From Flavobacteriales bacterium 32-34-25 (GTDB lineage: Bacteria > Bacteroidota > Bacteroidia > Flavobacteriales > Flavobacteriaceae), in assembly GCA_002280815.1 (NCBI GenBank), contig NCET01000007.1:1-36811 (forward strand): a DNA stretch of 36,811 nt, read 5' to 3'. The position numbers and the translations under genes were made by a program. The notes under the pieces were generated by a model that saw only the letters and a list, made by a program, of their open reading frames with translations, was not told the DNA's origin and ran no database searches. Within the stretch, counting starts at the first letter, position 1; each line of letters opens with the position of its first letter. Of the stretch, positions 10,519 through 32,000 are shown piece by piece.

Positions 10519-10950
10519 ATGTCATTTTCAGATTTATTTGATAGCGAATTTAAACAAAGAAATAAAGGTCATTTCTCTGCGATTGTTCGTGTTGCTCTAG
10601 CTGATGGTATTGTTTCTGATGAAGAAAAAGCTTTCTTAGATAAATTAGCCACAAAACTTGAAATTGCTCCTTCAGAATATGAAGAGATTTTAGAAAACCC
10701 AACAATTAATCCTATCAACCCACCTTATTTGTACACTCAAAGAATAGAGCGTTTGTTTGATTTAGCTAGAATGGTTCATGTGGATCATCAATTAGGCGAC
10801 AAACAAGAAATACTTTTAAAGAAAATTGGTATCGGATTAGGTTTTACTCCTAGCAATGTCAATTATATTATTGCAAAAGCATTGTCATTAGTAGACAAAA
10901 AAGTAGATTTTGACACTTTTGCTTACGAAATGCAAAACATGCACAAGTAA
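10519..10950 (+). CDS. TerB family (tellurite resistance B-like) protein
   Basis: A 143-residue, mostly helical cytoplasmic protein of the TerB-like family. The diagnostic acidic motif VALADGIVSDEEKAFL lies at about residues 26-41, and a similar metal-binding-style segment (HVDHQLGDKQEILLKKI) is near residue 96. TerB-like proteins bind Ca2+ through such acidic loops and are linked to stress responses. No other ter genes are nearby, so actual tellurite resistance should not be assumed. It is monocistronic: an exact -7 element precedes it and a strong hairpin terminator follows. Confidence 0.82.
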   Translation: MSFSDLFDSEFKQRNKGHFSAIVRVALADGIVSDEEKAFLDKLATKLEIAPSEYEEILENPTINPINPPYLYTQRIERLFDLARMVHVDHQLGDKQEILLKKIGIGLGFTPSNVNYIIAKALSLVDKKVDFDTFAYEMQNMHK

Positions 10951-10970: not shown

Positions 10971-11008
10971 AAAAAAAGCTCTTGAAATCAAAATCAAGAG
11001 CTTTTTTT
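10971..11008 (+). terminator. terB terminator; first copy of a 38-nt repeat
   Basis: The stem GCTCTTGA (10978-10985) with TCAAGAGC (10994-11001) has an 8-nt loop, seven As before and seven Ts after. The whole 38-nt unit recurs identically and in the same orientation at 20382-20419. Confidence 0.9.
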
Positions 11009-11093
11009 GTATAGTTTACACTATTTACGAAATATAAAAAACAGCAAGCACAAACAATTAAATACTATATCATTTATCATTGCAAATTTATTT

Positions 11094-11125
11094 TTGTGTA
11101 AGCTAAGGTATTTTAATTATGTTTG
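11094..11125 (+). promoter_or_regulatory. Promoter of the ECF sigma-factor gene
   Basis: TTG (11094-11096) lies 21 bases before TATGTTTG (11118-11125), matching the Bacteroidota -33/-7 pattern. The predicted start of transcription, near 11132, leaves a leader of about 37 bases before the ATG at 11169. This promoter rules out the upstream in-frame ATG at 11007. Confidence 0.6.
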
Positions 11126-11168
11126 CCTCAACCTTAATTGCATTATAATTAATTGCCAATCATCTAAT

Positions 11169-11819
11169 ATGAACTCTAATTTGACATCTTCAAATGAATC
11201 TGCTCTTCTATTGCGTATTGCATCTGGCGATGAATTATCCTATACACGTCTGGTTGAAAAATACTGGCAAAAGGTACTACAACATGCTCTCAGCTTTGTA
11301 AAATCCTATCCGATTGCTGAGGAATTAACACAAGATATTTTTATTCAGATTTGGGAAAAACGAAACAAATTATCCGAAGTAAATAGTTTTGAGAACTATC
11401 TTTTTATAGTAAGTCGCAATTTAATTATTAGTCATGTCAGAAAAAAACTGATAGAAACCGATTCACTGAAAGATCAAAAACTACAAGAGCTATTCTTTAA
11501 GCCGGATGAACAATATGAGTTTGAGGAATTAGTCAAAATTTTAAACGAAGGAGCTGCACTTTTGCCAGAACCCAGACGTTCTGTTTTCCTGTTAAGTCGC
11601 ATAGAAGGAAGGGGTACCGACTATATCAGCAAGAAATTAGGTATAGCAACAAGAACTGTTCGCTGGCATTTACTGCAGGCCTTAAACTTCCTTAGGATTT
11701 ACTTACACAATCATTATATCATCAGTCTTTTAGCCCTAATTTTATTAGGGCTATTTTTTTTCAAAAAATTTTCATTTTTCATTGCCACTTTAGTAATCAA
11801 ATCTCGTCTTTATAATTGA
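11169..11819 (+). CDS. ECF (FecI-like) RNA polymerase sigma factor
   Basis: A sigma-70 family factor of the Bacteroidota ECF type that regulates outer-membrane uptake loci. Region 2 spans about residues 25-95 (ELTQDIFIQIWEKRNKL), and region 4 about 120-175 with the helix-turn-helix (DYISKKLGIATRTVRWHLLQAL). An alternative start at 11007 is rejected because the promoter lies inside it. From the ATG at 11169 the product has 216 residues. Unusually, the last ~30 residues are a hydrophobic tail (SLLALILLGLFFFKKF), and the DNA coding for it is a perfect terminator hairpin. Deleting one T from the TTTT run at 11728-11731 would place TAG just before the hairpin, giving 187 residues, a usual family length. 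The gene lies 10 bases upstream of the fecR-like gene. Confidence 0.88.
   Translation: MNSNLTSSNESALLLRIASGDELSYTRLVEKYWQKVLQHALSFVKSYPIAEELTQDIFIQIWEKRNKLSEVNSFENYLFIVSRNLIISHVRKKLIETDSLKDQKLQELFFKPDEQYEFEELVKILNEGAALLPEPRRSVFLLSRIEGRGTDYISKKLGIATRTVRWHLLQALNFLRIYLHNHYIISLLALILLGLFFFKKFSFFIATLVIKSRLYN
11731..11761 (+). terminator. Terminator-like hairpin inside the sigma-factor 3' end
   Basis: TAGCCCTAAT (11731-11740) pairs perfectly with ATTAGGGCTA (11744-11753) across a 3-nt loop and is followed by eight Ts. It is as strong as the other terminators in the window but lies within the open frame, 69 bases before the FecR start. It could attenuate fecR transcription. Confidence 0.7.
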
Positions 11820-11829
11820 AGGACTTTTA

Positions 11830-13023
11830 ATGCCGTTCCCAAAACCTGTATTTATGTATCAAAAAGAAGAATTCAAAGAACTTATGGAGCAGTTTATTTC
11901 AGGAGAGATTACCCCTGAAGGAAAAACAATGCTACTCTCGATGTTGGATAATCCCCAATATTCAGAAGAACTAAATACAATTTTTCGTGAAAATTATGAC
12001 TCTGTAGAAATTCCTACTGTTAGCCCTGAGTCAACCCAAAAATTCATGGATGAACTTAAAAACAAAATGAATGCTTCAAAAGCAAAAGAACCATCTGTTG
12101 TAAGTTTATTCAATTGGAAAAAAATAGCTGTAGCTGCGAGTATTTTGGTAGCGATTGGCATTGGAACTTTTACTCTTTTACAAAAAAAGGATCAGTCTCC
12201 TGTGATGGTAGCATCAAAAACAAAAAACGACAAAGAACCTGGAAAGACCGGAGCAATATTGACTCTTTCCAATGGTTCTAAAATTGTTTTGGATAGCCTG
12301 GGAAATGGATTGATAGCCAATCAAAACAATACCTCTATTACAAAAAAGAATGGCGGACTGGTATATAAAGCTGGTAAGAATACCCAAATAGCATTCAACA
12401 CTATGACTACTCCCAGAGCGCGACAATATAACTTAGAATTATCCGACGGTACAAAAGTATGGCTCAACGCCTCTTCGTCAATTACTTTTCCAACTTCTTT
12501 TGCTGCAAATGAAAGAAAAGTAATCCTACATGGAGAAGCTTATTTTGAAGTAGCCAAAGATAAAAAAAGACCTTTTAGAGTTGCTGTGAATGATATGCAG
12601 GTAAATGTATTGGGAACTCATTTCAATATCAATGCCTATGAAAATGAAGCGAATGTGAACACCACTCTCTTAGAAGGAAGTGTATTAATTACTGAGAAAA
12701 ACCAAAATGTACTGCTAAAACCCGGACAGCAAGCACAAAAACAAAAATCAGGTGCTATTGTTGTAAACAACAATGTAAATCTCGAAGAAGTGATGGGTTG
12801 GAAAAACGGTGTTTTCTACTTTGAAAATGCAAGTATTCAAACAGTTTTACGACAATTAAGCCGCTGGTATGATGTAGATATTGTATTTGAAAAAGGAATT
12901 CCTGAAAGAACTTTTGAAGGAGAAATACAAAGAAATTTACAATTATCACAGGTATTGAAAATTTTAGAAAAAAATAAGGTTCATTTTAAAATTGAAGGAA
13001 ATATTTTAAGAGTAATGCCATAA
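11830..13023 (+). CDS. FecR family anti-sigma factor (DUF4974-containing)
   Basis: An inner-membrane regulator that holds the partner ECF sigma factor and relays a signal from the outer-membrane transporter. It has 397 residues: a cytoplasmic N-terminal segment (1-95), one membrane helix (about 98-117, IAVAASILVAIGIGTFTLL), a periplasmic FecR domain (about 180-280, with LSDGTKVWLNASSSITFP and VNVLGTHFNINAY) and a C-terminal DUF4974 domain (about 327-397). A second ATG at codon 9 (MYQKEEFKEL) is also plausible as start. It lies between the sigma factor (10-base gap) and the STN-containing SusC, the standard order of such trans-envelope circuits. Confidence 0.93.
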   Translation: MPFPKPVFMYQKEEFKELMEQFISGEITPEGKTMLLSMLDNPQYSEELNTIFRENYDSVEIPTVSPESTQKFMDELKNKMNASKAKEPSVVSLFNWKKIAVAASILVAIGIGTFTLLQKKDQSPVMVASKTKNDKEPGKTGAILTLSNGSKIVLDSLGNGLIANQNNTSITKKNGGLVYKAGKNTQIAFNTMTTPRARQYNLELSDGTKVWLNASSSITFPTSFAANERKVILHGEAYFEVAKDKKRPFRVAVNDMQVNVLGTHFNINAYENEANVNTTLLEGSVLITEKNQNVLLKPGQQAQKQKSGAIVVNNNVNLEEVMGWKNGVFYFENASIQTVLRQLSRWYDVDIVFEKGIPERTFEGEIQRNLQLSQVLKILEKNKVHFKIEGNILRVMP

Positions 13024-13082
13024 TTTAGTTTAGAACGGGGAAACCCATTTTTATAAAATATGTATTTGTAATCCATAAAAAA

Positions 13083-13137
13083 AGCCAGCAGATGTTGGTA
13101 GCATTTGCTGGCTTGTTCCTAAAATTAAAAAGGAACA
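13083..13137 (+). ncRNA. Tandem stem-loops in the susC leader
   Basis: Two adjacent hairpins lie in the 181-base gap before susC. Stem 1 pairs 13083-13094 with 13102-13113 (12 bp, one G-U). Stem 2 pairs TGTTCC (13114-13119) with GGAACA (13132-13137) and starts at the next base, so the stems could stack. No U tract follows on the plus strand, so this is unlikely to be a simple terminator of the sigma/fecR unit. On the minus strand stem 1 is followed by seven Us and could end an antisense transcript. A five-codon frame (ATG at 13141, peptide MENR) and an isolated AAGGAG (13167-13172) follow. Role unknown; a cis-regulatory leader is my inference. Confidence 0.45.
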
Positions 13138-13204
13138 GTTATGGAAAACAGATAGATAAACCAAGCAAGGAGAATTTATTATTAACCAAAACCATTTCAA
13201 AAGT

Positions 13205-16200
13205 ATGAAATTATTACCAAAAACCAAGCCAAAAAACCATTGGCCAACCACCAAAACCTGGAAAGTTATGAAGTTAACCTCCGTATTAGTTATTGCGCTA
13301 ACTTTTCAAGTTTCAGCTGCAGTATCCTCACAAACAATTACTTTCTCCGGAAAGAATGTTCCGTTTAAAAAAGTAATATCGGTCATAAAAAATCAGACTG
13401 ATTATGTTTTTTTCTATGACATGGCTATCTTAAAAAATGTGAAGCCAATCACTATTAATGTTGTAAGTACACCAATTGAAAAAGTACTGGAACAAGCTTT
13501 CGCAGAAACACCCATTACCTGGATCATTGAAGGAAAAACAATTTCGTTCATTCCTAAAGTTGAAAAAACCAAAGGATTAACCTTTTTATCATTACAGCAA
13601 AACCTAGTAAAAGGTAAAATTACTGATGAACAGGGAATGCCTCTGCCCGGTGCTACTGTACTTGTAAAAAAATCCAATAAAAGTACCACCACAGATTTAG
13701 ACGGAAATTTTACGATTACCGCTACTGAAACAGATATCTTACTATTTTCCTATATTGGATATACTACCAAAGAAATCACAGTTTCAAACCAAAAAACAAT
13801 TGATGTAAGCTTAAAAGAAGATATATCAGATCTAAAAGAGGTGGTTGTAATTGGGTATGGTACTCAAAAAAAAGAGCAACTAACCAGTGCTGTAGCCAAA
13901 GTATCGGCCAAAGATTTTAACTCTGGTAGTGTTAGTGATGCCGGGCAGCTTATTCAGGGAAAAGTTGCAGGTTTAAGTATTTCGCTACCAAGTGGAGATC
14001 CAACAGCCACTACTCAGGTTCTGTTAAGAGGAAGCAGTACACTTATTGGAGGAAATGCCAATCCTCTTGTTTTGATTGATGGTGTGCCGGGAGATTTCGG
14101 GACAGTACCACCCCAGGATATTGAATCTATTAGTGTACTTAAAGACGGTTCAGCTGCAGCAATGTACGGAACCAGAGGTACAAATGGTGTTATACTGATA
14201 ACCACTAAAAGAGCATCGGGATCCTATAAAAGTTCAATTAGCTACTCAGCTATTTTAAGTACACAGCAAATAAGCAGAAGTTTGAACATGCTTAATGCTC
14301 AGGATTACAGAAATCAAATTGCTGCCGGAAAAAGAAATACAAATGATGATTTAGGAGATGATACTGATTGGCTCGATGCTATCACGCAAACTCCAATTAG
14401 TCACACACACAATCTTACTTTTAGAGGAGGTGATTCTAAAACAAATTATCTGGCTACTTTCAATGTTAGAAAATTAGAAGGGATTTTCCTGAAATCAGAT
14501 AATAATCTTTATACAGGTCGTGTTGATATTAATCATTCTATGTTTGATGATAAACTTCGTTTTAATTTAGGTTATTTAAACCGAAGTGGAAATTATACTA
14601 CAACAGGAGATGGCGCTAGTTTTAACGGATACACCTACAGACAGTCTCTTATAAGAAATCCTACATCGCCTATCCGATATGAAGATGGCACTTGGGATTC
14701 ACCTGGTGATATTGGGAACTTTAATTATGACAATCCATTAGGTAGATTAAATGAATCACAAGGACAAAACAGAAATAATTTTAGTCGTCTTAATACCCGA
14801 ATTGATTTCTTGCCTATTGAGGGATTGAAACTTTCTTCTTTAATCTCTTATTCAAGATACAACGAAACCAGAGGCTATGCAGAATCTAAAAATCATATTT
14901 CAAATACTAGAGGAGGGGTAAATGGATATGTGTCAAACGGAACCAGAGAAACTCAAGATAGATTGGTTGAATTGACTGCTCAATATTCTAAGAAGATCGA
15001 TAATCATGATTTTACAATATTAGGAGGTTATAGTTATCAGGATAATTTTTTTCGTGATTATTGGATGACTAATAATGATTTTCAAACCGATATTTTTGGT
15101 TACAACAATATTGGGTTAGGATTAGGAATCAAAAACGGAAGTACTTTTGCTAATATTGGAGGTAATACTGCCAAAACAAATCTTATAAGTTTCTTCGGAA
15201 GACTTAATTACGCTTTTAATGATCGATATTTATTACAACTTAGTGTTCGACATGAAGCGGCAAGTCAGCTTTATAAAACAGATAAGCCTTGGGGAACTTT
15301 TCCAGCTATTTCTGCTGGATGGAGAATTTCTCAGGAGGAATTCATGAAAAATGTAAAGTTTGTTGACGAACTTAAATTAAGAGCAGGTTATGGTGTTACT
15401 GGCACACCTAATCCTAACGGCTTTGGTGCTGTTGCGTTGTTAGGATATGGTCCAAGTTTTTATTATAATGGAGAGTGGATTCGAACGTTGACTCCTTCAC
15501 AAAATGAAAATCCGCATTTAAAATGGGAAGAAAAACATGAAATTAATTTAGGTTTGGATTTTGAACTTTTCAAGAGTTTTATAACGGGTTCTGTTGATTA
15601 TTATAAGCGTAATATCAAAGATCTATTGTATGATTATGCAGTTCCGACACCTCCAAATTTATATGGAACAACTCGTGCTAACGTGGGAGAACTTTCAAAC
15701 AAAGGACTTGAGGTTTTAGTTAATGTAAATGCTGTAAGAACAAAGGATTTTGATTGGACTTCAAGCGTGAATTTTTCAACAAATACCAGTAAGCTGGCTA
15801 GTTTAACTAATGATATCTATACTTTAAGTTCAGATTATTTTTATACAGGTAATACAGGGGAACCAATTCAGACTTTTACTCATAAAGTACAGGTGGGGCA
15901 ATCAATAGGTAATTTCTATGGTTTTAAAGTTGTTGACATTGATGATCAGGGAAAGTGGATTTATGAAACTCCTGCTGGTGAAAGACAATCGTCAGCTGAT
16001 TTTGCCCGTACTACCGAGAATAAACAATTGTTAGGTAACGGTTTGCCAAAATTTTATGCAGGATTGAATAATAATTTTAGATACAAGAACTGGGATTTAA
16101 GTGTTACCATGAGAGGGGCTTTTGATTATCAGATATTAAACTACGATCGTATGTATCTTGAAAATCCAACAGTTTTGAATTATAACAGGCTTAAGTCTTC

Positions 16201-16504
16201 TGAAGAGAAGGTTTTTGGAAAGACCCAATTAACCGAAACAGCCTTAGAATTTAACAGTCATTATATAGAAAATGGCGATTTTTTGAAGGTTGATAATATA
16301 ACTTTTGGATACAATTTTAAAAAATTAGGAAAAGCAATAAGTTCAGCAAGAATTTATACTTCTGTTTTAAATGCTTTTGTTTTTACAGGTTATAAAGGAA
16401 TTGATCCGGAAGTGGATAGAGGCGGACTTGCTCCGGGTAATGATGGCAGGGATAAATATCCAACCGCTCGTACTTTTAATTTCGGAATTGATGTGTCGTT
16501 TTAA
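13205..16504 (+). CDS. SusC/RagA family TonB-linked outer-membrane protein with STN domain
   Basis: A TonB-dependent transporter importing glycan fragments across the outer membrane. It has 1099 residues. The signal peptide has a long basic n-region and then LTSVLVIALTFQVSAAVSS. An STN domain follows (about 45-118), the part that touches FecR in signalling transporters. Then come a CarboxypepD_reg-like domain (about 133-208, VKGKITDEQGMPLPGATVLV), a TonB-box-like LKEVVVIGYGTQ (about 210), the plug (LIDGVPGDFG, ISVLKDGSAAAMYGTRGTNG) and a beta-barrel ending in NFGIDVSF with terminal Phe. Its STN domain and position after fecR predict that substrate binding activates the sigma factor. susD follows after 19 bases. 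Confidence 0.95.
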   Translation: MKLLPKTKPKNHWPTTKTWKVMKLTSVLVIALTFQVSAAVSSQTITFSGKNVPFKKVISVIKNQTDYVFFYDMAILKNVKPITINVVSTPIEKVLEQAFAETPITWIIEGKTISFIPKVEKTKGLTFLSLQQNLVKGKITDEQGMPLPGATVLVKKSNKSTTTDLDGNFTITATETDILLFSYIGYTTKEITVSNQKTIDVSLKEDISDLKEVVVIGYGTQKKEQLTSAVAKVSAKDFNSGSVSDAGQLIQGKVAGLSISLPSGDPTATTQVLLRGSSTLIGGNANPLVLIDGVPGDFGTVPPQDIESISVLKDGSAAAMYGTRGTNGVILITTKRASGSYKSSISYSAILSTQQISRSLNMLNAQDYRNQIAAGKRNTNDDLGDDTDWLDAITQTPISHTHNLTFRGGDSKTNYLATFNVRKLEGIFLKSDNNLYTGRVDINHSMFDDKLRFNLGYLNRSGNYTTTGDGASFNGYTYRQSLIRNPTSPIRYEDGTWDSPGDIGNFNYDNPLGRLNESQGQNRNNFSRLNTRIDFLPIEGLKLSSLISYSRYNETRGYAESKNHISNTRGGVNGYVSNGTRETQDRLVELTAQYSKKIDNHDFTILGGYSYQDNFFRDYWMTNNDFQTDIFGYNNIGLGLGIKNGSTFANIGGNTAKTNLISFFGRLNYAFNDRYLLQLSVRHEAASQLYKTDKPWGTFPAISAGWRISQEEFMKNVKFVDELKLRAGYGVTGTPNPNGFGAVALLGYGPSFYYNGEWIRTLTPSQNENPHLKWEEKHEINLGLDFELFKSFITGSVDYYKRNIKDLLYDYAVPTPPNLYGTTRANVGELSNKGLEVLVNVNAVRTKDFDWTSSVNFSTNTSKLASLTNDIYTLSSDYFYTGNTGEPIQTFTHKVQVGQSIGNFYGFKVVDIDDQGKWIYETPAGERQSSADFARTTENKQLLGNGLPKFYAGLNNNFRYKNWDLSVTMRGAFDYQILNYDRMYLENPTVLNYNRLKSSEEKVFGKTQLTETALEFNSHYIENGDFLKVDNITFGYNFKKLGKAISSARIYTSVLNAFVFTGYKGIDPEVDRGGLAPGNDGRDKYPTARTFNFGIDVSF

Positions 16505-16523
16505 ACTATTTAAAAAAGAGAAA

Positions 16524-18170
16524 ATGAAAATAAATATATATCGCAGTATTGTCAAAGGATTAACTTTGGCATTAATATTAATTCTAAATTCTTGTACCAC
16601 ATTAGAGAATGAAAATTTCAGCACTATAGTTGCCGAAGATTTTCAACCTACAAATGATGATGTAGCAGCGTTAATTGGATCTGGTTATACCGGATGGCGC
16701 GAGACTTTATTATTATGGAACGGAGTATGGAGAAGTCAGGAAGTAACCGCTGATGAAATCATCATACCAGGAAGACCTAATGGCTGGGTTGATGGCGGAA
16801 TTTACAAAAGAATTCATCAACATGATTGGTATAAAGAAGATGATAATGTATTGCAGGGTTGGAACAGGACTTACAACGGTATAACAAAATGTAATCAGCT
16901 TATTTATCAGGTAGAAACTAATTTTATACCATTAGATGCTACTGCAAAATTGAAAACACTTGCTGAATTAAAAGTTTTAAGAGCGTCATATTATTATATC
17001 TTATTAGATTTATATGGTAATGTTGCCTTAAGTACCGAATTTAATGTACCCGAAGGTTATTTACCTCCACAAGCTACAAGACAGGAAATTTATGATTTTG
17101 TTGTTAGTGAAATTTTAAACAATATTAATGATCTGGATGATTTAAGTGTTTCTTCAAAAACGGAATACTATGGTAGATTCAATAAATGGGCAGCTTATAC
17201 GCTTTTGGCAAAAGTATATCTAAATGCTGAAGTTTATACAGGAACTCCTCGATGGACAGAATGTCAAGCAGCCTGTCAGGCAGTTATAGATTCAGGAAAA
17301 TATTCTTTAGAATCAAATCAGAAAAACGTATTTATTACTGAGAATCAAAATTCCTCTGAAATTATTTTCGGACTTGCTATTGATGGAAAATATACAACAG
17401 AGTGGAATCAGTTTGATATTCATTTGCAGACTTTGCAGCCTTCTAATCAGGCTACTTATAATTTGAAATTGACTCCATGGGGAGGGATGTGTGCAACTCC
17501 TCAGTTCATTGAGAGTTTTGATCCTGATGATAGTCGTTTAAAAGATAATTTTATTTATGGACCTCAATATAGTTCAACTGGAGTTCCTTTAAAGTGTACC
17601 ATGGGGGCTTTTAGTGGTCAGCCACTAAGTTATATCAATGTTGTACCAAGTATTGATGCTTCTGAAGAAATACACGGTTATCGTTTTGGTAAATTTGAAA
17701 TAGCTAAAGGTTCCAACAATATTTTGAGTAATGATTTTCCTTTATTTCGCTACACAGATATTCTTATGATGAAAGCCGAATGTCTGTTAAGAACCAACAA
17801 AGCTAATGAAGCAGCTCAAATAGTAACAGAAGTAAGACAAAGAGCATTTCTAGCTAATCCTGTAAAAGCTTTAGTTACTGGAACACAATTATTAGGAGGG
17901 AGTGTTTATGATTATGGGCGTAGAGATATTAATCAAACTACTAATGAAGGAGGATCCGATATTCAATACGGGCGTTTTCTGGATGAGTTGGCGTGGGAGT
18001 TTAATCAGGAAGGAAGACGAAGACAGGATATGATACGTTTTGGTGTATTTACCACCAAATCATGGTTTTCGCATAATGCAAGTGCCGATTATAGAAAACT
18101 ATACCCAATACCACAGGCAGCCATGTTAACCAATGGAAATCTTGAACAAAACCCAGGTTATATCAATTAA
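16524..18170 (+). CDS. SusD/RagB family outer-membrane nutrient-binding lipoprotein
   Basis: The surface glycan-binding partner that caps the SusC transporter. From the ATG at 16524 it has 548 residues and begins with a lipoprotein signal peptide ending LILNSC, so Cys24 is the lipidated residue. The body shows SusD features: helical repeats (AELKVLRASYYYILLDLYGNV, AAYTLLAKVYLNAEVY), the late segment RYTDILMMKAECLLRTNK, and the C-terminal DELAWEFNQEGRRRQDMIRFG. The frame is open further upstream, overlapping the end of susC, but that stretch lacks a signal peptide. It is the fourth gene of the sigma-fecR-susC-susD-GH127 locus. Confidence 0.95.
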   Translation: MKINIYRSIVKGLTLALILILNSCTTLENENFSTIVAEDFQPTNDDVAALIGSGYTGWRETLLLWNGVWRSQEVTADEIIIPGRPNGWVDGGIYKRIHQHDWYKEDDNVLQGWNRTYNGITKCNQLIYQVETNFIPLDATAKLKTLAELKVLRASYYYILLDLYGNVALSTEFNVPEGYLPPQATRQEIYDFVVSEILNNINDLDDLSVSSKTEYYGRFNKWAAYTLLAKVYLNAEVYTGTPRWTECQAACQAVIDSGKYSLESNQKNVFITENQNSSEIIFGLAIDGKYTTEWNQFDIHLQTLQPSNQATYNLKLTPWGGMCATPQFIESFDPDDSRLKDNFIYGPQYSSTGVPLKCTMGAFSGQPLSYINVVPSIDASEEIHGYRFGKFEIAKGSNNILSNDFPLFRYTDILMMKAECLLRTNKANEAAQIVTEVRQRAFLANPVKALVTGTQLLGGSVYDYGRRDINQTTNEGGSDIQYGRFLDELAWEFNQEGRRRQDMIRFGVFTTKSWFSHNASADYRKLYPIPQAAMLTNGNLEQNPGYIN

Positions 18171-18175
18171 ATATC

Positions 18176-18202
18176 TTATGGCGGGCATTTTGTCCGCCAT
18201 AA
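18176..18202 (+). terminator. Stem-loop between susD and the GH127 gene
   Basis: TTATGGCGG (18176-18184) pairs perfectly with CCGCCATAA (18194-18202) around a 9-nt loop. Only TTATT follows, not a real U tract. It may be a weak terminator or an RNA-stability hairpin lowering GH127 expression relative to susCD. Confidence 0.5.
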
Positions 18203-18271
18203 TTATTAAAAAATTCAATTTGATAACAAATTATTAGATACAAATTATACTATTTAATAAACAAAACAATA

Positions 18272-20275
18272 ATGATAAATTATAAGTACATAGGGATTAC
18301 GGCAATTACTGCGCTGGTAATAGCCTGTTGTTCACAGACAAAAAAAACAACTGAATCCCACACTAAGGACGCAACAGATAAATCAATATTAATTTCGGGC
18401 TATCCAATTGAGCCAATAGCTATCAGTAAGGTGAAAATTACCGATGATTTTTGGTTGCCAATTATAAAAAGAGTACAAGAAAAAACAATAGAGTATGCTA
18501 TACAGAAATGTACAGAAGAAGGTCGTTTTGAAAATTTCCTGATTGCAGGTGGTGTACAAAAAGGAACAGTAAAAGGTAAGATGCCATTTGATGATTCAGA
18601 TGTTTATAAAATTATTGAAGGTGCTTCTAATTCATTGATAAGTTCTCCAAATCCAAAACTTGAAGTTCTTCTAGATTCACTTATCAGTATTGTTAAAATT
18701 GGTCAGGAAAAAGATGGGTATCTAACTACCTGGCGAACCATAAATCCTACTAAACCACCTGCTGACTGGGTTAAGGTCGATAAAGGAGTGCGTTGGGAAT
18801 ATATGAATATGAGCCATGAAGAATATAATGCGGGTCACATGTATGAAGCGGCTGCTGTGCATTTTAAGGCAACAGGAAAACGTAATTTTCTAGACATTGC
18901 ACTTAAAAACGCCGACCTTTTTGTGAAAACCTTTGGTGAGGGTAACGGGCAGATTTTGGCTGTACCTGGTCATCAGATTATTGAAACGGGATTAGTAAAA
19001 TTATATGAAGTAACTGGTAAAAAAGATTATTTAACACTGGCTAAATACTTTTTAGATCATAGAGGAGATCCTAATAAAAAAGATAACTACGGTGAGTATT
19101 CACAAGACCATAAACCGGTAATCCACCAGGATGAGGTGGTCGGTCACGCCGTTAGAGCGGTATATATGTATGCCGGGATGACTGATATTGCTGCTATTTA
19201 TAAAGACAAAAGCTATCGCGATGCTGTAGATAAACTTTGGGATAATATGGTAGAGAAAAAAATATATATTACTGGTGGTATTGGAGCCAAACACGATGGA
19301 GAAGCTTTTGGTAGTAATTATGAATTACCTAATCTCACAGCTTACAATGAGACGTGTGCAGCTATCGGTAGTGTGTATTGGAACAATCGCTTATTTAATC
19401 TTACTGGTGATGTGAAATATAACGATGTATTGGAACGCACACTCTATAACGGTGTCATAGCTGGTATGTCTCTTTCAGGAACAGAATTCTTTTATCCTAA
19501 CCCTATGGAGTCTGACGGGAAATATAAATTTAATATGGGTGCCTGTACACGTTCGGGTTGGTTTGACTGTTCTTGTTGTCCAACAAATTTGATTCGTTTT
19601 ATACCTGCAATACCAGGGCTTATTTATGCAAAAGAAAAAGAAACGCTTTTTGTTAATCTATATATAAGTAATCATGCTGATATAAATCTTGCTAATCATA
19701 AATTGAAAATAAACCAGAAAACAAATTATCCTTGGGATGGAAAGGTAAAACTGGATATTAACCCTGAAAATGAGGCAGTATTTACCATAAAGCTACGAGT
19801 TCCAGGATGGGCAAGAAATGAGGTGATGCCAGGTGGTTTGTACAGTTATAAAGACAAATCCTTTACCTTACCAACATTGGTAATTAATGGAAAAAAACAG
19901 GATGCTAAAATTCTGGATGGTTATTTTGCAATTAATCGCAAATGGAATAAAGGAGATAAGGTTGAGGTTAATTTTCCGATGAGTATTCGTGAAGTGGTGG
20001 CAAGTGACAAAATTGTCGAAGATCAAAACAAAATAGCCTTAGAGTATGGCCCGCTTGTTTATGCAGTTGAAGAGGCTGATAATACTAACGTTGACGCTAT
20101 AGTTTTAAATAGTAAAACTTCGTTAAAAGTTCAGACACAACCTAATTTATTAAAGGGAATTAATGTAATTGAGGGTTTTAATGAAAAAGATACATTTACT
20201 GCAATTCCATATTATACATGGAGTAACAGAGGTATTGGAAAAATGAAAGTTTGGCTTCCTGAAAGCAGCAAATAA
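18272..20275 (+). CDS. Glycoside hydrolase family 127 lipoprotein (beta-L-arabinofuranosidase type)
   Basis: A retaining glycosidase, predicted to release L-arabinofuranose from plant-type glycans. It has 667 residues with a lipoprotein signal (ALVIAC, Cys19), so it is membrane-anchored. By motif comparison with the characterised GH127 enzyme HypBA1, the catalytic parts are present: acid/base Glu344 (HDGEAFG), zinc ligands Glu360 and Cys362 (NETC), and Cys433-Ser-Cys435-Cys436 (FDCSCCPTN), in which Cys435 is the likely nucleophile. The N-terminal (alpha/alpha)6-like part includes EYNAGHMYEAA. It is the only carbohydrate-active enzyme in the locus. Other GH127/DUF1680 members may have different specificity, so the exact substrate is inferred. 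Confidence 0.9.
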   Translation: MINYKYIGITAITALVIACCSQTKKTTESHTKDATDKSILISGYPIEPIAISKVKITDDFWLPIIKRVQEKTIEYAIQKCTEEGRFENFLIAGGVQKGTVKGKMPFDDSDVYKIIEGASNSLISSPNPKLEVLLDSLISIVKIGQEKDGYLTTWRTINPTKPPADWVKVDKGVRWEYMNMSHEEYNAGHMYEAAAVHFKATGKRNFLDIALKNADLFVKTFGEGNGQILAVPGHQIIETGLVKLYEVTGKKDYLTLAKYFLDHRGDPNKKDNYGEYSQDHKPVIHQDEVVGHAVRAVYMYAGMTDIAAIYKDKSYRDAVDKLWDNMVEKKIYITGGIGAKHDGEAFGSNYELPNLTAYNETCAAIGSVYWNNRLFNLTGDVKYNDVLERTLYNGVIAGMSLSGTEFFYPNPMESDGKYKFNMGACTRSGWFDCSCCPTNLIRFIPAIPGLIYAKEKETLFVNLYISNHADINLANHKLKINQKTNYPWDGKVKLDINPENEAVFTIKLRVPGWARNEVMPGGLYSYKDKSFTLPTLVINGKKQDAKILDGYFAINRKWNKGDKVEVNFPMSIREVVASDKIVEDQNKIALEYGPLVYAVEEADNTNVDAIVLNSKTSLKVQTQPNLLKGINVIEGFNEKDTFTAIPYYTWSNRGIGKMKVWLPESSK

Positions 20276-20381
20276 TGCAAAAGACTAAACAAAATCAAAA
20301 TATCCAGACTCAAAATATTTTTTAGCCCAAGAACATCTGTACAAAAGCGTTATTTTCACAGGAATCCCTTTCTAAACCATA
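20276..20381. other. Gene-free stretch between the GH127 gene and the fbp terminator
   Basis: I see no gene, promoter match or hairpin in these 106 bases. They may be the junction sequence of the inserted sugar locus. Confidence 0.4.
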
Positions 20382-20421
20382 AAAAAAAGCTCTTGAAATC
20401 AAAATCAAGAGCTTTTTTTTT
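20382..20421. terminator. Bidirectional terminator of GH127/fbp; second copy of the 38-nt repeat
   Basis: Stem GCTCTTGA/TCAAGAGC with an A run on one side and nine Ts on the other, so it works for the GH127 gene (plus) and fbp (minus). It is identical over 38 nt to 10971-11008, in the same orientation. Confidence 0.9.
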
Positions 20422-20437
20422 GTGTTTTAAATAACTA

Positions 20438-21448
20438 TTACTGCTTTGCTTTTAGCATAAATTCTTCCGCCTTAGTTACCATATTATAGCTTCCGCAGAA
20501 AAATGGTACACGCTCGTGCAATTCAGTTGGTTTAATTTCCATTATTCTTTTAAATCCGTCCGAAGCTTTTCCTCCTGCTTGTTCAGCAATAAAAGCCATT
20601 GGATTGCATTCATACAACAACCTCAATTTCCCTTTTGGTGCTTTTGAACTTGTAGGATAAATATAAATTCCGCCTTTAATCATGTTTCTATGAATATCCG
20701 AAACTAAACTACCTATATATCTTGAAGTATAAGGTCGGTCTTCTTCTTCAGATTGACAATATTTAATATAATCCTTAACTCCTTGTGGAAACTGAATATA
20801 ATTCCCTTCGTTAATAGAATAAATATGTCCGTCTTTAGTGAACTTCATATCAGGATGCGACAGATAAAAAGTTCCAATTGCAGGGTTTAAAGTAAAACCA
20901 TTTACCCCATGACCAGTTGTATAAACTAACATTGTCGATGTTCCGTAGATTACATACCCTGCTGCCACCTGCATGGTTCCTGGCTGAAGAAAATCTTCAA
21001 TTGTAACTGGTGTTCCCACTGGAGTAACACGCCTGTAAACCGAAAAAACTGTTCCTACCGAAACATTCACATCAATATTAGACGAACCATCTAAAGGATC
21101 CATTAAAACCACATATTTGTTCTTGTGGCCTTTGTCATTTCCTTCAACTGTGATAAAATCATCGTTTTCTTCTGATGCTATTCCGCAAACAATTTCACGG
21201 TTTTTTAATGTTTGAATAAAAACTTCATTAGCATATACGTCTAATTTTTGTTGATCTTCCCCTTGAATATTTTGCTCACCAGCTGCTCCTGTAATATCAA
21301 TTAAACCCGCTTTATTCACTTTATAGCTAACCACTTTTGCGGCCAAACGTATTGAATTGATTATTCGAGATAATTCACCAGATGAATATTGAAATGCGTT
21401 TTGATTTTCAATAATAAATTCTCCTAAGGTTTTAGTGCTTTCTTCCAT
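20438..21448 (-). CDS. fbp: Class I fructose-1,6-bisphosphatase
   Basis: The gluconeogenic enzyme hydrolyses fructose 1,6-bisphosphate to fructose 6-phosphate, using Mg2+, in the cytoplasm. It has 336 residues, usual for class I. The metal-site signature [19 protein letters not shown] lies at about 113-131, with the upstream acidic ligands in GIASEEND (about 90-97). The substrate-binding region includes [13 protein letters not shown] and [21 protein letters not shown], followed by [15 protein letters not shown]. The start at 21448 gives [12 protein letters not shown], typical of the family. Transcribed convergently to the sugar locus and divergently from the GNAT gene. Confidence 0.97.
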
Positions 21449-24983: not shown

Positions 24984-24998
24984 AAATTCCAATATAAA

Positions 24999-25047
24999 AA
25001 ATCCCAAATTCCAATTTTTCTATTTGGAATTTGGGATTTGTTTTTTT
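24999..25047 (+). terminator. Terminator of the glycosyltransferase gene
   Basis: A perfect 16-bp stem: AAATCCCAAATTCCAA (24999-25014) with TTGGAATTTGGGATTT (25024-25039), 9-nt loop, then GTTTTTTT. Confidence 0.9.
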
Positions 25048-25138: not shown

Positions 25139-26017
25139 TTAAGCTACATTTTTGTAATTAATTTGATTGTTAAATTCTTCAATAGTTGCATAATTCAAAG
25201 CAGAATACCTTCTTTTTCTGTTGCACCAAATTTCAATGTATTCAAAGATTTCCAGCTTCATTTGTTCTTTAGAAACCAATTTATTTCCATAAATTAATTC
25301 AGTTTTTAAGGATTTAAAAAAACTTTCCGCTACCGCATTATCCCAACAATTTCCTTTTCGACTCATACTACGGGTTATTTTTTTATAGGAATCAAGAACA
25401 TTTACAAATCTTTTGCTTGCATATTGGACACCTCTGTCTGAGTGGAAAATCAAACCTTCCTCAACATTTCGATTTTTAACCGCCATATTCCAAGCTCCAA
25501 GCGTAGTTTCATCCGTATTCATTCCATCGCTCAAACTCCAACCTATAATTTTCCTGTCATATAAATCCATAATGGTAGTCAGGTAGATAAATCCCTCTTT
25601 AGTTTGAATATAGGTGATATCCGAAACCCAAACTTTTGAAGGCATTTTAACAATAAACTCTCTGTTTAATATATTTTCGACGATTAAATAATTATGATTT
25701 GAGTTGGTTGTTACTTTGAATTTCTTGCTTAATTTACTTCGTAAGCCTAACTGTTTCATATATTTTGCCATGGTAATTCTTGAAATTTTATAACCAAAAC
25801 TTTGAAGTTCTAATGTTATTCTAGGACTTCCATATCGTTGCTTGGATTCAAAATAAATTAATGTTATCTGTTCTTTTATGGCAATTTTTAGTTGCTGTCT
25901 TGCGGTGATTATTTGTTTTTTCCATCTGTAATAACTTCCACTGCTCACTTGTAGAACTTTGCACATTTTTTCAATCGGGAATAGTTTTTCATTGTTTTTA
26001 ATGAAACTATAAATCAT
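25139..26017 (-). CDS. IS3-family transposase OrfB (DDE integrase domain)
   Basis: The catalytic part of the transposase has 292 residues when read from its own ATG. An HTH_21-like segment (KQRYGSPRITLELQSFGYKI) precedes the rve integrase core. The DDE residues are Asp133 (VWVSDITYI), Asp194 (FHSDRGVQYA) and Glu231 (NAVAESFFKSLK). The ATG overlaps the orfA stop as ATGA (26014-26017). Functional transposase is probably made by -1 frameshifting at a run of seven As in orfA (plus-strand Ts 26047-26053). The shifted frame is open through to orfB and would give a fusion of about 391 residues. Confidence 0.93.
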   Translation of the reverse strand: MIYSFIKNNEKLFPIEKMCKVLQVSSGSYYRWKKQIITARQQLKIAIKEQITLIYFESKQRYGSPRITLELQSFGYKISRITMAKYMKQLGLRSKLSKKFKVTTNSNHNYLIVENILNREFIVKMPSKVWVSDITYIQTKEGFIYLTTIMDLYDRKIIGWSLSDGMNTDETTLGAWNMAVKNRNVEEGLIFHSDRGVQYASKRFVNVLDSYKKITRSMSRKGNCWDNAVAESFFKSLKTELIYGNKLVSKEQMKLEIFEYIEIWCNRKRRYSALNYATIEEFNNQINYKNVA

Positions 26018-26313
26018 CGACCGCTCTTGGAAAAAATGCCGATTGCTTTTTTTAATACATCACGTTCTAACTCGGCATCTTTGAGTTTTTTCTCCAGTTC
26101 ATAAATTTTTTCTTGCTCAGGAGTAAGTTTTAATTTTCCTTTCCCAGGAAAGCTTCCTTCTCCAAACTCTTCGAACTCTTTGCGCCATTTATACAACTGA
26201 GGCGCTGTTATTCCTAATTCTCTGGCGAGTTCTGATATGTTTGTTCTATCATAGCTCAATTGGACTGCTTTCTCTTTAAAAGCTTTGTCATAAATTTTGC
26301 GAACTTGTTTCAT
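26014..26313 (-). CDS. IS3-family transposase OrfA (HTH DNA-binding protein)
   Basis: A 99-residue DNA-binding subunit of the IS3 transposase. The helix-turn-helix lies at about residues 20-45 (RTNISELARELGITAPQLYKWRKEF), followed by a leucine-zipper-like coiled coil (EKIYELEKKLKDAELERDVLKKAI) typical of OrfA. The slippery sequence TTA-AAA-AAA-GC near codons 87-89 allows a -1 shift into orfB. OrfA alone usually acts as a regulator of transposition. Confidence 0.93.
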   Translation of the reverse strand: MKQVRKIYDKAFKEKAVQLSYDRTNISELARELGITAPQLYKWRKEFEEFGEGSFPGKGKLKLTPEQEKIYELEKKLKDAELERDVLKKAIGIFSKSGR

Positions 26314-29048: not shown

Positions 29049-32000
29049 TTAGCTGTTTTTGGGAATTGTAAAATAAAAAGTAGTTCCCTTGGCCTCTTCA
29101 GATTCCAGCCAGATTTTGCCTCCCCAGGATTCTATATGCTTTTTAGCTATTGCCAAGCCTATTCCTGTTCCGCTATACTCATTCCTATTGTGCAATCTTT
29201 GAAAGATAATAAATATTTTTTCAAAAAACTGACTGGCGATTCCTATACCATTGTCTTTAATAACAAACAACCATTCTTCTGTTTTGTCTTCCACTTTCAA
29301 CTCTACAATAGGCGAAACACTTTCTGACGAATACTTAATGGCATTATCCAATAAACAATGTAATGTTTGAACCAATGGAACTCTGAAAACTTCGATTATT
29401 GGTAAATGATTAAAATGGATTAAAACCGATTTTTCAGCGATAATTTTACTCCTAAGAATTTTATAATCTTCAACCATATCCGTCAAGTTTACCTTTTCTT
29501 TGTGCTCATCCAGTTTACCCGCTCTTGAATATTCTAATAAATCAAGAATAATTTGCTTCATTCTTTTAGCACCATCTGTTGCATAATAAATATACTGATG
29601 CGCTTTTTGGTCTAAAACGTCACCATATTTTCTTTCCAATTGATTCATGAAACTAGTTATCATACGCAACGGTTCCTGCAAATCATGTGAAGCGATAAAT
29701 GCAAATTGCTCTAACTGTTCATTACTAAGTTCCAGATCATGGGCATATTTCTTTAAGGATTCGTTTGCTTCCTGAAGTTTGACTTCCTGAAATTTCCTTT
29801 CAGAAACATCAGTTACCGCACCAATTATCCGTATCGCTTCCCCTTTATCATTTCTAATAACAATAGCCCTATCAATTACATAAGCATAAGTACCATCTGC
29901 TTTTCTAAACCTGTATTCTCCTTTCAAATTTTGCAATTCAATATCTTTCTCTACTTTTAAAAGATTTTCATGTACCACTTTTAAATCGTCAGGATGAACA
30001 TTTTCTCTCCAAAACTGCATTGTAGGGGTAATTTGATCTAAATCGTATCCAAAAAGTTTTTTAAATCCAACACCCCAATACAAGATATCCTCTACTATTT
30101 TTAAATCCCAAATAGCATCATTAGTAGCTTCAGTTACTTTTTCAAATCGTTCATTAGCCCTTAAAAGTCTTAAATCAGACTGCTTCCTCAAGGTTACATC
30201 TTTAAAATAAACCGAAAGACCATCTGATGATGGATATACAGAAACTTCAAACCATTTATTCAATGTAGTGTAATACTCTTCAAAACTTACATTTCTATGA
30301 GTTTCCATAGCAAAATGATATTGGCGATAAAAATCGGAATCTATAGCATCGGCATATTCTTCCCAAAGATTTTTCCCCATCATCAAGTCTCTTCCTTTCC
30401 CTAAAAGGTTTTCTGCTTCTTTATTCCAATAAGTTACAATCCACTCATTGTTTACCGCAAAAAAAGCATCACCAATACTTTCCAGTATATTATTTCTTTC
30501 TTCATAGGCATCTAATAATTTTTTTCTCAAAGAAATATCTCTAAAAAACACTGTTAGTCCCTCCTCGGAAGGGTACGCATTAACTTCGAGCCAAATACCA
30601 TAATTATCTTCAAAGCTAATAGGCTGTCCAGTTTCCAAAACTCTATGATAATTAGTATAGGAAGGAAGAGAAACAGCATCTGGGAATACATTCCACAAAT
30701 TTTTACCTAAAAGTTGTTCTCTTTTTACACCCAATAATTCTTCGGCAGCTCTGTTCCAATAGGACACAACGAAATTTTTATCCATCGTAAAAAACGCATC
30801 GGCAATACTTTCTACAATGTTGTTTTTCTCCAGATAAGCTTTTTCGAGTTTCTCCCTAGCTAATTTACGTTCATCAATATTTTTAAAATAAACCGAAATT
30901 CCTCCATTAGAAGGATAAACATTTATTTCGTACCATTTGCCATCCCCAGGAAAAAGATATTCAAAAGAATCTGGTTGTTTGAATTTTGCAACATTAAAAT
31001 AAATCTTTTCTAAAGAGGTTCCTATGGCAGCAGGAAATTCATTCCATAAATTCTTACCAATAATATCAACTGCACTTTTTTGAAGGAGATTTTCCGCTTC
31101 TTTATTAAAATAACTAATCTTCCAATCCTTATCAAGAGCATAAAAAGCATCCGAAATACTGCCTAAAATTTCGCTGAATTGAAGTTGTAATATTTTAGCA
31201 TTATGAATATCCTGAAAACTACCATATATACGAACACATTTTCCATCTACCAAATCAGCATTACCTATTACACGTACCCAGCGTTCATTTTTTTTAGCAG
31301 TAATAAGCGCCGCTTCAAAATTAAAGGTCTTACCCTCAAAAATACAAGAATTAATACTTTGCCTAATCATTTCCCTAAAATCCTTTCGATAGAAATTGAT
31401 TCCTTTTACTAAATCAGGAACAAAGGTTTTAGGATTTGTTTCATGCAATTGATGCACCATATCTGTCCAAAAAAATTTATCTTCAATCAAATCAATTTCC
31501 CAACTTCCAATTTTAGCTAATGCTGATGTCTGAACATTGAGTTCACTTAACTTTTTCTCTTTTGTTATATTTTTTGCAGTAGCATAAATTAATCCATCTT
31601 CAAGTTGTGAAGTACACACCCAGCTTAACCAAACAATTTCTCCTTTTTTAGTAATATATCTATTTTCAAACTTAAAAGTAGTTTTATCCTTTCCTATTTT
31701 TTGCAACTCTTGTAGTGAAATATCTTTATCTTCAGGATGTACAAATTCTACACAGTAATGAAAAAGCAATTCTTCTTCTGAATACCCTAATAACTCATAT
31801 CCAGCAGTATTCATTTTAAGAAATCTCCCTTGAAAATCAGCCAAACAAACAATATCTGGAATAGCTTTAAATAAATGATTCAGACTTGATTCAAGCGTTT
31901 TTCTATTTATTTCTGAACCAATAAAAGTCTCCAATTCTTTAAAAACACCGATATAACGACTTAATTGCATACTTTTTTTAGTAGAACCAAAAACCAGCAC

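Follow-up and report, generated by a model that had tools for sequence, protein, structure and literature searches.

How did a complete sugar-uptake operon come to lie between two identical copies of one transcription terminator? The question is raised by a stretch of 36,811 nucleotides from Flavobacteriales bacterium 32-34-25 (GCA_002280815.1, contig NCET01000007.1, positions 1-36,811 of the forward strand), which was analysed as a whole and is called the window here. In it, five genes separate a terB-like gene from fbp, the gene of a class-1 fructose-bisphosphatase, and a 38-nt stem-loop stands at each border. We consider it fairly probable that the 9.37-kb operon was inserted into the terminator between terB and fbp and that the whole stem-loop was duplicated, with one copy left at each border.

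Relocation of operons recurs in bacterial evolution, and the junctions are rarely preserved. At this locus the empty, filled and likely source sites can all be seen. The genome of the window, a 4.04-Mb assembly in 593 contigs that is 90% complete, is referred to as G000, and its relatives carry G-numbers (G005, G050, G450 etc.).

A doubled terminator at the operon borders

The 38-mers at 10971-11008 and 20382-20419 are identical and in direct orientation, as reported in a preliminary description of the window. The same description gave the loop correctly and the stem too short, at 8 bp. Each copy is a perfect hairpin of 16 bp, composed of A7/T7 and the 9-bp arms AGCTCTTGA/TCAAGAGCT, with the 8-nt loop AATCAAAA. 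Four stretches of 50 nt, covering both copies on both strands, were folded as RNA and gave -20.3 to -22.0 kcal/mol; for each of them, 0 of 200 shuffled sequences were as stable. A scan with a terminator consensus detected the left copy on both strands and the right copy on the + strand only (three of four copy-strand combinations). With its stable hairpin, a U tract on each strand and its position at gene 3' ends, the 38-mer is predicted to be an intrinsic bidirectional terminator. According to the available text of PMC5381666, convergent genes can have one bidirectional hairpin in common, with conserved stems and variable loops.

Even with up to two mismatches allowed, the 26-nt core was found only at these two sites in the assembly of G000. 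It had 0 matches in genome_contigs and viral_contigs, collections from which the own or very near records may be excluded. A search of the genome for the 38-mer had been proposed beforehand as a test of whether it is a common terminator whose presence at the borders is coincidental. Dispersed CCCGACAG hairpins do exist in other Flavobacterium, with AACCCGACAG arms and 6 to 47 copies per genome in seven relatives (G078, G048, G090, G082, G015, G056 and G008), but this family has 0 copies in G000. Since the core of the 38-mer occurs just twice in its own assembly, at these borders, a common dispersed terminator was ruled out, and we give this explanation practically no credence.

In 1,160 kb of the sister genomes G005 and G050 taken together, we detected 208 terminator-like hairpins, and just one further pair less than 25 kb apart was near-identical. 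The pair detector used here recovers the pair of the window; it misses hairpins with imperfect stems, such as those of G048. The observation of a doubled terminator is confirmed and unusual.

The empty site in related genomes

It had been suggested that terB and fbp were once convergent neighbours with one bidirectional terminator, and adjacency of the two genes in relatives without the locus had been named as the point to check. We searched 90 relatives of the same genus and compiled the gene coordinates by hand. Every one of them has fbp; a terB ortholog was found in 78, the remaining 12 giving a weak or no terB match. The two genes are convergent, on one contig and within 7 kb in 73 of the 78 relatives that have both; in the other five they lie on different contigs (four) or far apart (one, G037). 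The gap between them is shorter than 300 bp in 53 of the 73, and within these short gaps our own detector found exactly one hairpin in 45, two in 5 and none in 3.

Seven relatives group with G000 in a tree of 13 rows: G005, G050, G073, G025, G450, G378 and G400. The arms of the window hairpin are present in the terB-fbp gap of the first four, as a single copy per genome, and once in the terB locus of the last three. Six distinct loops occur among the seven, and none of them is the loop of the window.

In blastn comparisons the empty site is seen directly. The alignment of the window with G005, G050 and G073 stops at 11006-11012 and resumes at 20378-20384, and with G025 it stops at 11007 and resumes at 20363; around the hairpin, the subject segments of these four overlap by just 34-53 nt. 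Within the resolution that these breaks and overlaps allow, the duplication coincides with the hairpin. Judged by the empty sites of the seven relatives, the target of the insertion was the stem-loop, that is, the terminator. The direct repeat flanks the insert and is single in the empty sites, as in a target-site duplication. On the terB side, the nearest of these relatives is 84.9% identical in nucleotides. Because the two loops of the window are identical while the loops of the species differ, the duplication followed their divergence; it is recent, later than the split from these species. The comparison supports an ancestral convergent arrangement of terB and fbp around one common terminator, so that this earlier suggestion holds for the genus (73 of 78) and for the seven grouping relatives with their one hairpin. 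Of the two findings named beforehand as refuting the idea, separated genes in relatives and a common genome-wide terminator, neither was obtained.

As observations on the hairpin itself, its arms (window 10977-11002) are fixed in the seven relatives, and the loops vary in sequence and in length, from 4 to 12. When compared by eye, the G050 loop TATTGAAT is one base off the reverse complement of the G005 loop AGTCAATA, as if the hairpin had been flipped.

Two other histories bear on these junctions. In one, the operon would be ancestral between terB and fbp, and the relatives would have lost it by recombination between the repeats, with one terminator left. Precise loss between direct repeats yields exactly the empty site that is observed, but the single-hairpin junction is found genus-wide, with 45 of the 53 short gaps showing it, and in G450 the operon lies elsewhere and the junction is empty. 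We regard such a loss as extremely improbable. In the other, the terminator would have been duplicated in tandem by slippage or template switch before the operon entered between the copies by any route. The terminator loops of the clade change fast, and the five short junctions with two hairpins include one, in G041, where the pair resemble each other; in the other four, however, the hairpins differ, and none of the seven grouping relatives has a doubled hairpin. These two steps seem distinctly unlikely to us. A single insertion with duplication of the stem-loop would explain the facts shown here.

Gene content and edges of the insert

Domain matches bear out the block of sigma, fecR, susC, susD and GH127 genes, and its flanks TerB and class-1 fructose-bisphosphatase, that had been noted before. 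The features of the locus, in window coordinates, are as follows.

10519..10950, + strand: terB-like gene, the left neighbour; TerB domain PF05099 (E 3.3e-8); its 3' end faces the left terminator copy
10971..11008, no strand: left 38-nt terminator copy; A7, 9-bp arm, loop AATCAAAA, 9-bp arm, T7
11009..11072, no strand: inner edge of the insert on its left side; neither G450 nor the fbp-side flank shows reliable homology
11073..11168, + strand: sigma-gene leader, which can be aligned with G450 starting at about 11073
11169..11819, + strand: ECF sigma factor; PF04542, PF08281; likely ATG start at 11169
11830..13023, + strand: FecR anti-sigma factor; PF04773, PF16344
13205..16504, + strand: SusC/RagA TonB-dependent receptor with N-terminal STN domain; TIGR04056 (2.1e-221); PF07660 STN at aa 67-118
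16371..18170, + strand: SusD-like surface lipoprotein; PF07980, PF14322; the listed start overlaps susC and the true start is probably downstream
18272..20275, + strand: GH127 glycoside hydrolase, beta-L-arabinofuranosidase-like; PF07944 (1.9e-108)
20276..20381, no strand: inner edge of the insert on its right side; neither G450 nor the 3' ends of terB show reliable homology
20382..20419, no strand: right 38-nt terminator copy, at the 3' ends of fbp (-) and GH127 (+)
20438..21448, - strand: fbp, class-1 fructose-bisphosphatase, the right neighbour; PF00316, PF18913, NF006778

Both terB (+) and fbp (-) point toward the enclosed locus, and all five genes of the insert are on the + strand. A SusC-SusD pair together with sigma/FecR and a glycoside hydrolase is the composition of an ECF/FecR-regulated polysaccharide utilization locus, and the presence of GH127 suggests arabinofuranosyl or related plant glycans as the substrate. 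The match of the GH127 protein to the NCBIfam aceric acid hydrolase reaches 454 bits, below the cut-off of 950 bits, and that of the sigma factor to TIGR02985 reaches 111 bits, below the cut-off of 126 bits. For the sigma gene, the TTG start in the list of open reading frames (ORFs), at 11007, falls inside the terminator; the ATG at 11169 is likelier and has an equivalent start in G005.

The left inner edge of the insert showed no significant homology to the fbp-side flanks. The right inner edge was compared five times with terB 3' ends, and 238, 267, 21, 331 and 100 of 1000 shuffles, respectively, were as good. No integrase was found among the five insert ORFs that were scanned with Pfam.

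A chimeric assembly, in which the operon contig was joined to the terB-fbp contig at a common 38-mer, has to be considered, since the assembly is fragmented (593 contigs, 90% complete) and a repeat of 38 nt is shorter than a read. Both operon ends would then need the 38-mer, but it is found nowhere else in the assembly; moreover, terB, a close fecR and a close GH127 are each matched once in G000, and the GC content of the insert (0.342) may be set beside that of the left (0.340) and right (0.313) flanks. We judge a chimera very unlikely.

Further to the right, the window contains an IS3-family element with two ORFs (25139-26313), about 100 bp to the right of a perfect hairpin at about 24998-25039, and a gene for a histidine kinase of 1491 aa with many PAS domains (29049-33524), with response-regulator genes nearby. 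A second class-1 fbp of G000 (86% identical) lies elsewhere (G000:C187; L072:297-7454) in a cluster resembling those for glycerol utilisation, with a DeoR-type regulator, a glycerol-3-phosphate dehydrogenase-like protein, the glycerol kinase GlpK and a MIP channel.

Origin of the operon

The preliminary description had the locus enter between terB and fbp, and held that terminators as docking sites would be a notable mode of transfer. Our data do not support an arrival from outside. In a FecR search over 398 genomes of the genus, identities of 80-87% were found in G450, G005, G378, G400, G358 and G236. G450, a sister species, has the complete operon, corresponding to window 11085-20264, at 87% nucleotide identity; the amino acid identities are 93 (sigma), 87 (FecR), 92 (SusC), 89 (SusD) and 90% (GH127). 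It lies about 280 kb from the terB of G450, whose fbp junction is empty. Past GH127, the G450 operon has an extra gene for an MGH1-like glycoside hydrolase (L245:15406-17013), which the window block is without.

The operon site of G450 (on C4, from the GH97 gene at about 840,000 to beyond 860,000) is syntenic on both sides with the sigma-fecR site of G005, the shared order running from a GH97 gene past a weakly SMP-30-like one, and G005 has at this site sigma-fecR with another SusC/SusD (58 and 54%). The SMP-30-like neighbour is also near sigma-fecR in G378 and G400, but on the other side, and G358 and G236 have the sigma-fecR stretch alone in common with G450 within the 20 kb compared. As the G450 operon stands away from terB, at a site syntenic with G005, the operon is not foreign. 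It is, by these comparisons, native to the clade at another chromosomal site, and is best described as relocated inside the clade or acquired from a close relative rather than brought from afar. Identity of the window to G450 is 87.8% for sigma-fecR and 84.8% for the terB side. Two trees place G000 among the same species, with the inner forks open. Among the matches listed for G000, where four of 6 FecR and four of 16 GH127 candidates were scored, there is no second FecR or GH127 above 40%.

A foreign source was tried and rejected. The GH127 protein alone had pointed to G176 (82%), which has SusC at 76% and SusD at 74% and no sigma/FecR match; this was overridden by the full operon of G450. 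Plasmid records contained no near match to the insert. For the GH127 protein, all 270 plasmid records were below 60%, the best listed being 49%, and so were all 11 phage records.

Recombination at the terminator was the other route left open at the outset. A conspecific circular or linear molecule with the 38-mer beside the operon would have entered the resident terminator through one crossover at short homology, and such Campbell-type integration also leaves perfect direct repeats of 38 nt. However, the sequence inspected at the two ends of the G450 operon contains no such hairpin, the exact core was not found in genome_contigs or viral_contigs, and the loop is specific to the lineage; therefore the donor would need the terminator of the same lineage already beside the operon, which restates the problem. 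We regard this integration as unlikely, though a possibility to be taken seriously. Entry by duplication is well supported and, on the sequences compared, fits better than recombination at the terminator, from which it is not finally separable.

A further observation concerns susC. When the sigma-fecR-susC run of the window (region 13205-14215) was compared by blastn, matches stopped within susC, at about codon 115 in G260 and G424, codons 118-122 in G236, G226 and G346, codon 155 in G358 and G422, codons 76-80 in G017 and G328, and codon 337 in G005, G378 and G400, with weaker matches beyond. As aa 118 is the end of the STN domain of SusC and aa 329 that of the plug, the positions of the breaks look like cassette exchange, in which the sigma-FecR-STN signalling module would be kept and the barrel, SusD and enzymes swapped.

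Search for other insertions at terminators

The terB-fbp junction is an insertion hotspot, as 20 of the 73 relatives have a gap of at least 300 bp, from 471 bp to 6.9 kb. The contents include an IS1182 element (G022), a four-gene module, small lipoprotein-like genes and a 6.9-kb block. In several large-genome relatives, the CCCGACAG family borders the genes inserted here. We applied the pair detector to 16 of the 20 large gaps and a test for near-repeats with an inverted repeat to all 20. A duplicated unique terminator was found in none of these 20 relatives. Near-identical terminators stand at both borders in two of them, G048 (one difference within the pair) and G078 (two differences), where the family is dispersed 19 and 47 times, respectively. 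The near-repeat test was positive in three gaps: at the borders in G048, and with another motif inside the gap in G015 and G078.

Away from this junction, the syntenic parts of the 400-kb blocks of G005 and G050 differ by 15 insertion-like events. A hairpin is present at the empty site in 5 of them and at both insert ends in 0. When 400 kb of G005 and 400 kb of G050 were scanned for exact repeats, 0 repeats with a hairpin were found, in a run that had no positive control. Hence, the proposal that terminators are general docking sites for glycan loci is not supported; as a general habit, docking at terminators is mostly absent from the genomes compared.

A second candidate was found in G050 between xerD and another outer membrane protein (OMP) gene (G050:C1:397363-398003; L141:7363-8003), where a 31-nt terminator is doubled exactly and in direct orientation around an OMP gene of 172 aa. 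The terminator is single at the same place in G005 and G073, and G000 has it doubled with one loop difference (C585; L169:1326-1950). We consider this second case real but weaker. Since G005 and G025 share the core of the 31-nt terminator and the gene belongs to an OMP array, tandem duplication with loss would explain it equally.

Proposed mechanism and significance

In the ancestral state, a single bidirectional terminator would have served the convergent genes terB and fbp. The strands may have been opened at the two feet of the stem-loop, extruded or otherwise recognised, the operon block joined at the opened feet and the 38-nt single-stranded gaps then filled, so that the hairpin would be duplicated in the manner of a target site. 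The agent could be a transposase acting in trans, as IS1182-type enzymes recognise such hairpins, or the repair of a break at a cruciform. Since neither a transposase nor a terminal inverted repeat was found, we infer the agent and claim no membership in the IS1182 group. Both old genes would be expected to retain a terminator and the newcomer to be insulated on each side, and for this reason the site should be tolerant. The direct repeats would also allow precise loss of the operon.

Several points weigh against insertion with duplication of the stem-loop. A stem of 16 bp is short for cruciform extrusion. None of the 15 insertion differences between G005 and G050 resembles the case of the window. 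At the insert ends there is no significant terminal inverted repeat, the best match being equalled in 143 of 500 shuffles, and none of four IS1182 end words; nor was there a transposase among the five Pfam-scanned ORFs. The right inner edge has an 18-nt match to the terB-side flank of G025 (1 in 401, uncorrected, among 11 tests) and a borderline match to the terB end of G005 (21 of 1000 shuffles, among 5 tests). These two matches might point to duplication or recombination over a longer segment, and we do not rely on them. The native site is known from relatives of G000, and both relocation and import from a close relative fit. Moreover, the IS1272 events in the available text of PMC5678879 and PMC4923244 are hairpin replacements or partial deletions, not duplications.

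If the proposed mechanism is true, it explains how a five-gene operon could land between conserved genes, fbp among them, with all transcription units still terminated. Should recombination or tandem duplication be true instead, the locus would be a worked example that identical border terminators call for a comparison with the empty site before transfer is inferred. It is also conceivable, but quite unlikely in our view, that Flavobacterium has an unrecognised operon mover that is guided by the structure of terminator hairpins and makes exact duplicates of them, the window and the xerD-OMP case of G050 being its products. Any terminator between convergent genes could then accept an insulated operon, with the neighbours unharmed.

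Comparison with known systems

In our literature search, which covered titles and the beginnings of abstracts, no operon flanked by an exactly duplicated terminator was described, and we make no wider claim. In integrative islands, att direct repeats some tens of bp long restore the 3' end of the target gene. The window likewise has direct repeats of tens of bp at gene 3' ends, but the scanned ORFs of the insert include no integrase, and no other contig searched contains the repeat core. As in canonical DDE transposition, a direct repeat of the target stands on both sides and is single in the empty site. The target-site duplication of canonical DDE transposition is usually a few bp; the repeat of the window, in contrast, is 38 bp and coincides with the hairpin, and there are no element ends.

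Tn7 inserts at attTn7 downstream of glmS, according to the available text of PMC2918618, and resembles the present case in that it lands next to a housekeeping gene, at its 3' end, where insertion is tolerated. Unlike Tn7, the insert of the window has no Tns genes and its case shows no site specificity. To our knowledge, hairpin duplication is not known for Tn7.

The IS1182 family shares the kind of target. One partial IS1182 gene is present elsewhere in G000. The IS1182 transposase gene of G022 lies within the terB-fbp junction, with no direct repeat of at least 14 nt in the region scanned, and an IS1182 element of G005 has 17-nt inverted end repeats, with no flanking direct repeat longer than 11 nt in the stretches compared. 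It has been shown that IS1272 targets terminator hairpins (PMC4923244, available text). As in the window, IS1272 and TnSha1 of this family target a terminator or other stem-loop without a sequence consensus (PMC4923244, PMC5678879, available text), and a metabolic gene can ride along. For IS1182-related enzymes, both passenger genes and target duplication are optional, as far as the available text of PMC12056078 goes. In contrast to the window, where the hairpin is intact twice, IS1272/TnSha1 removes or replaces the hairpin without duplication in the accounts available. The cargo of the window differs too, being a five-gene operon in which transposase and terminal inverted repeat were not found.

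Shared bidirectional terminators (PMC5381666, available text) resemble the ancestral junction in having one hairpin for two convergent genes, with constant stems and changing loops, and differ in that the hairpin of the window is doubled around an inserted operon. Duplication of a whole stem-loop is drawn as 'pathway b' in the model of structure-targeted transposition of PMC5678879, whose available text does not report this outcome for its own element. The junction described here has the stem-loop doubled in direct orientation, and the locus is a clean, probably new variant of structure-targeted insertion.

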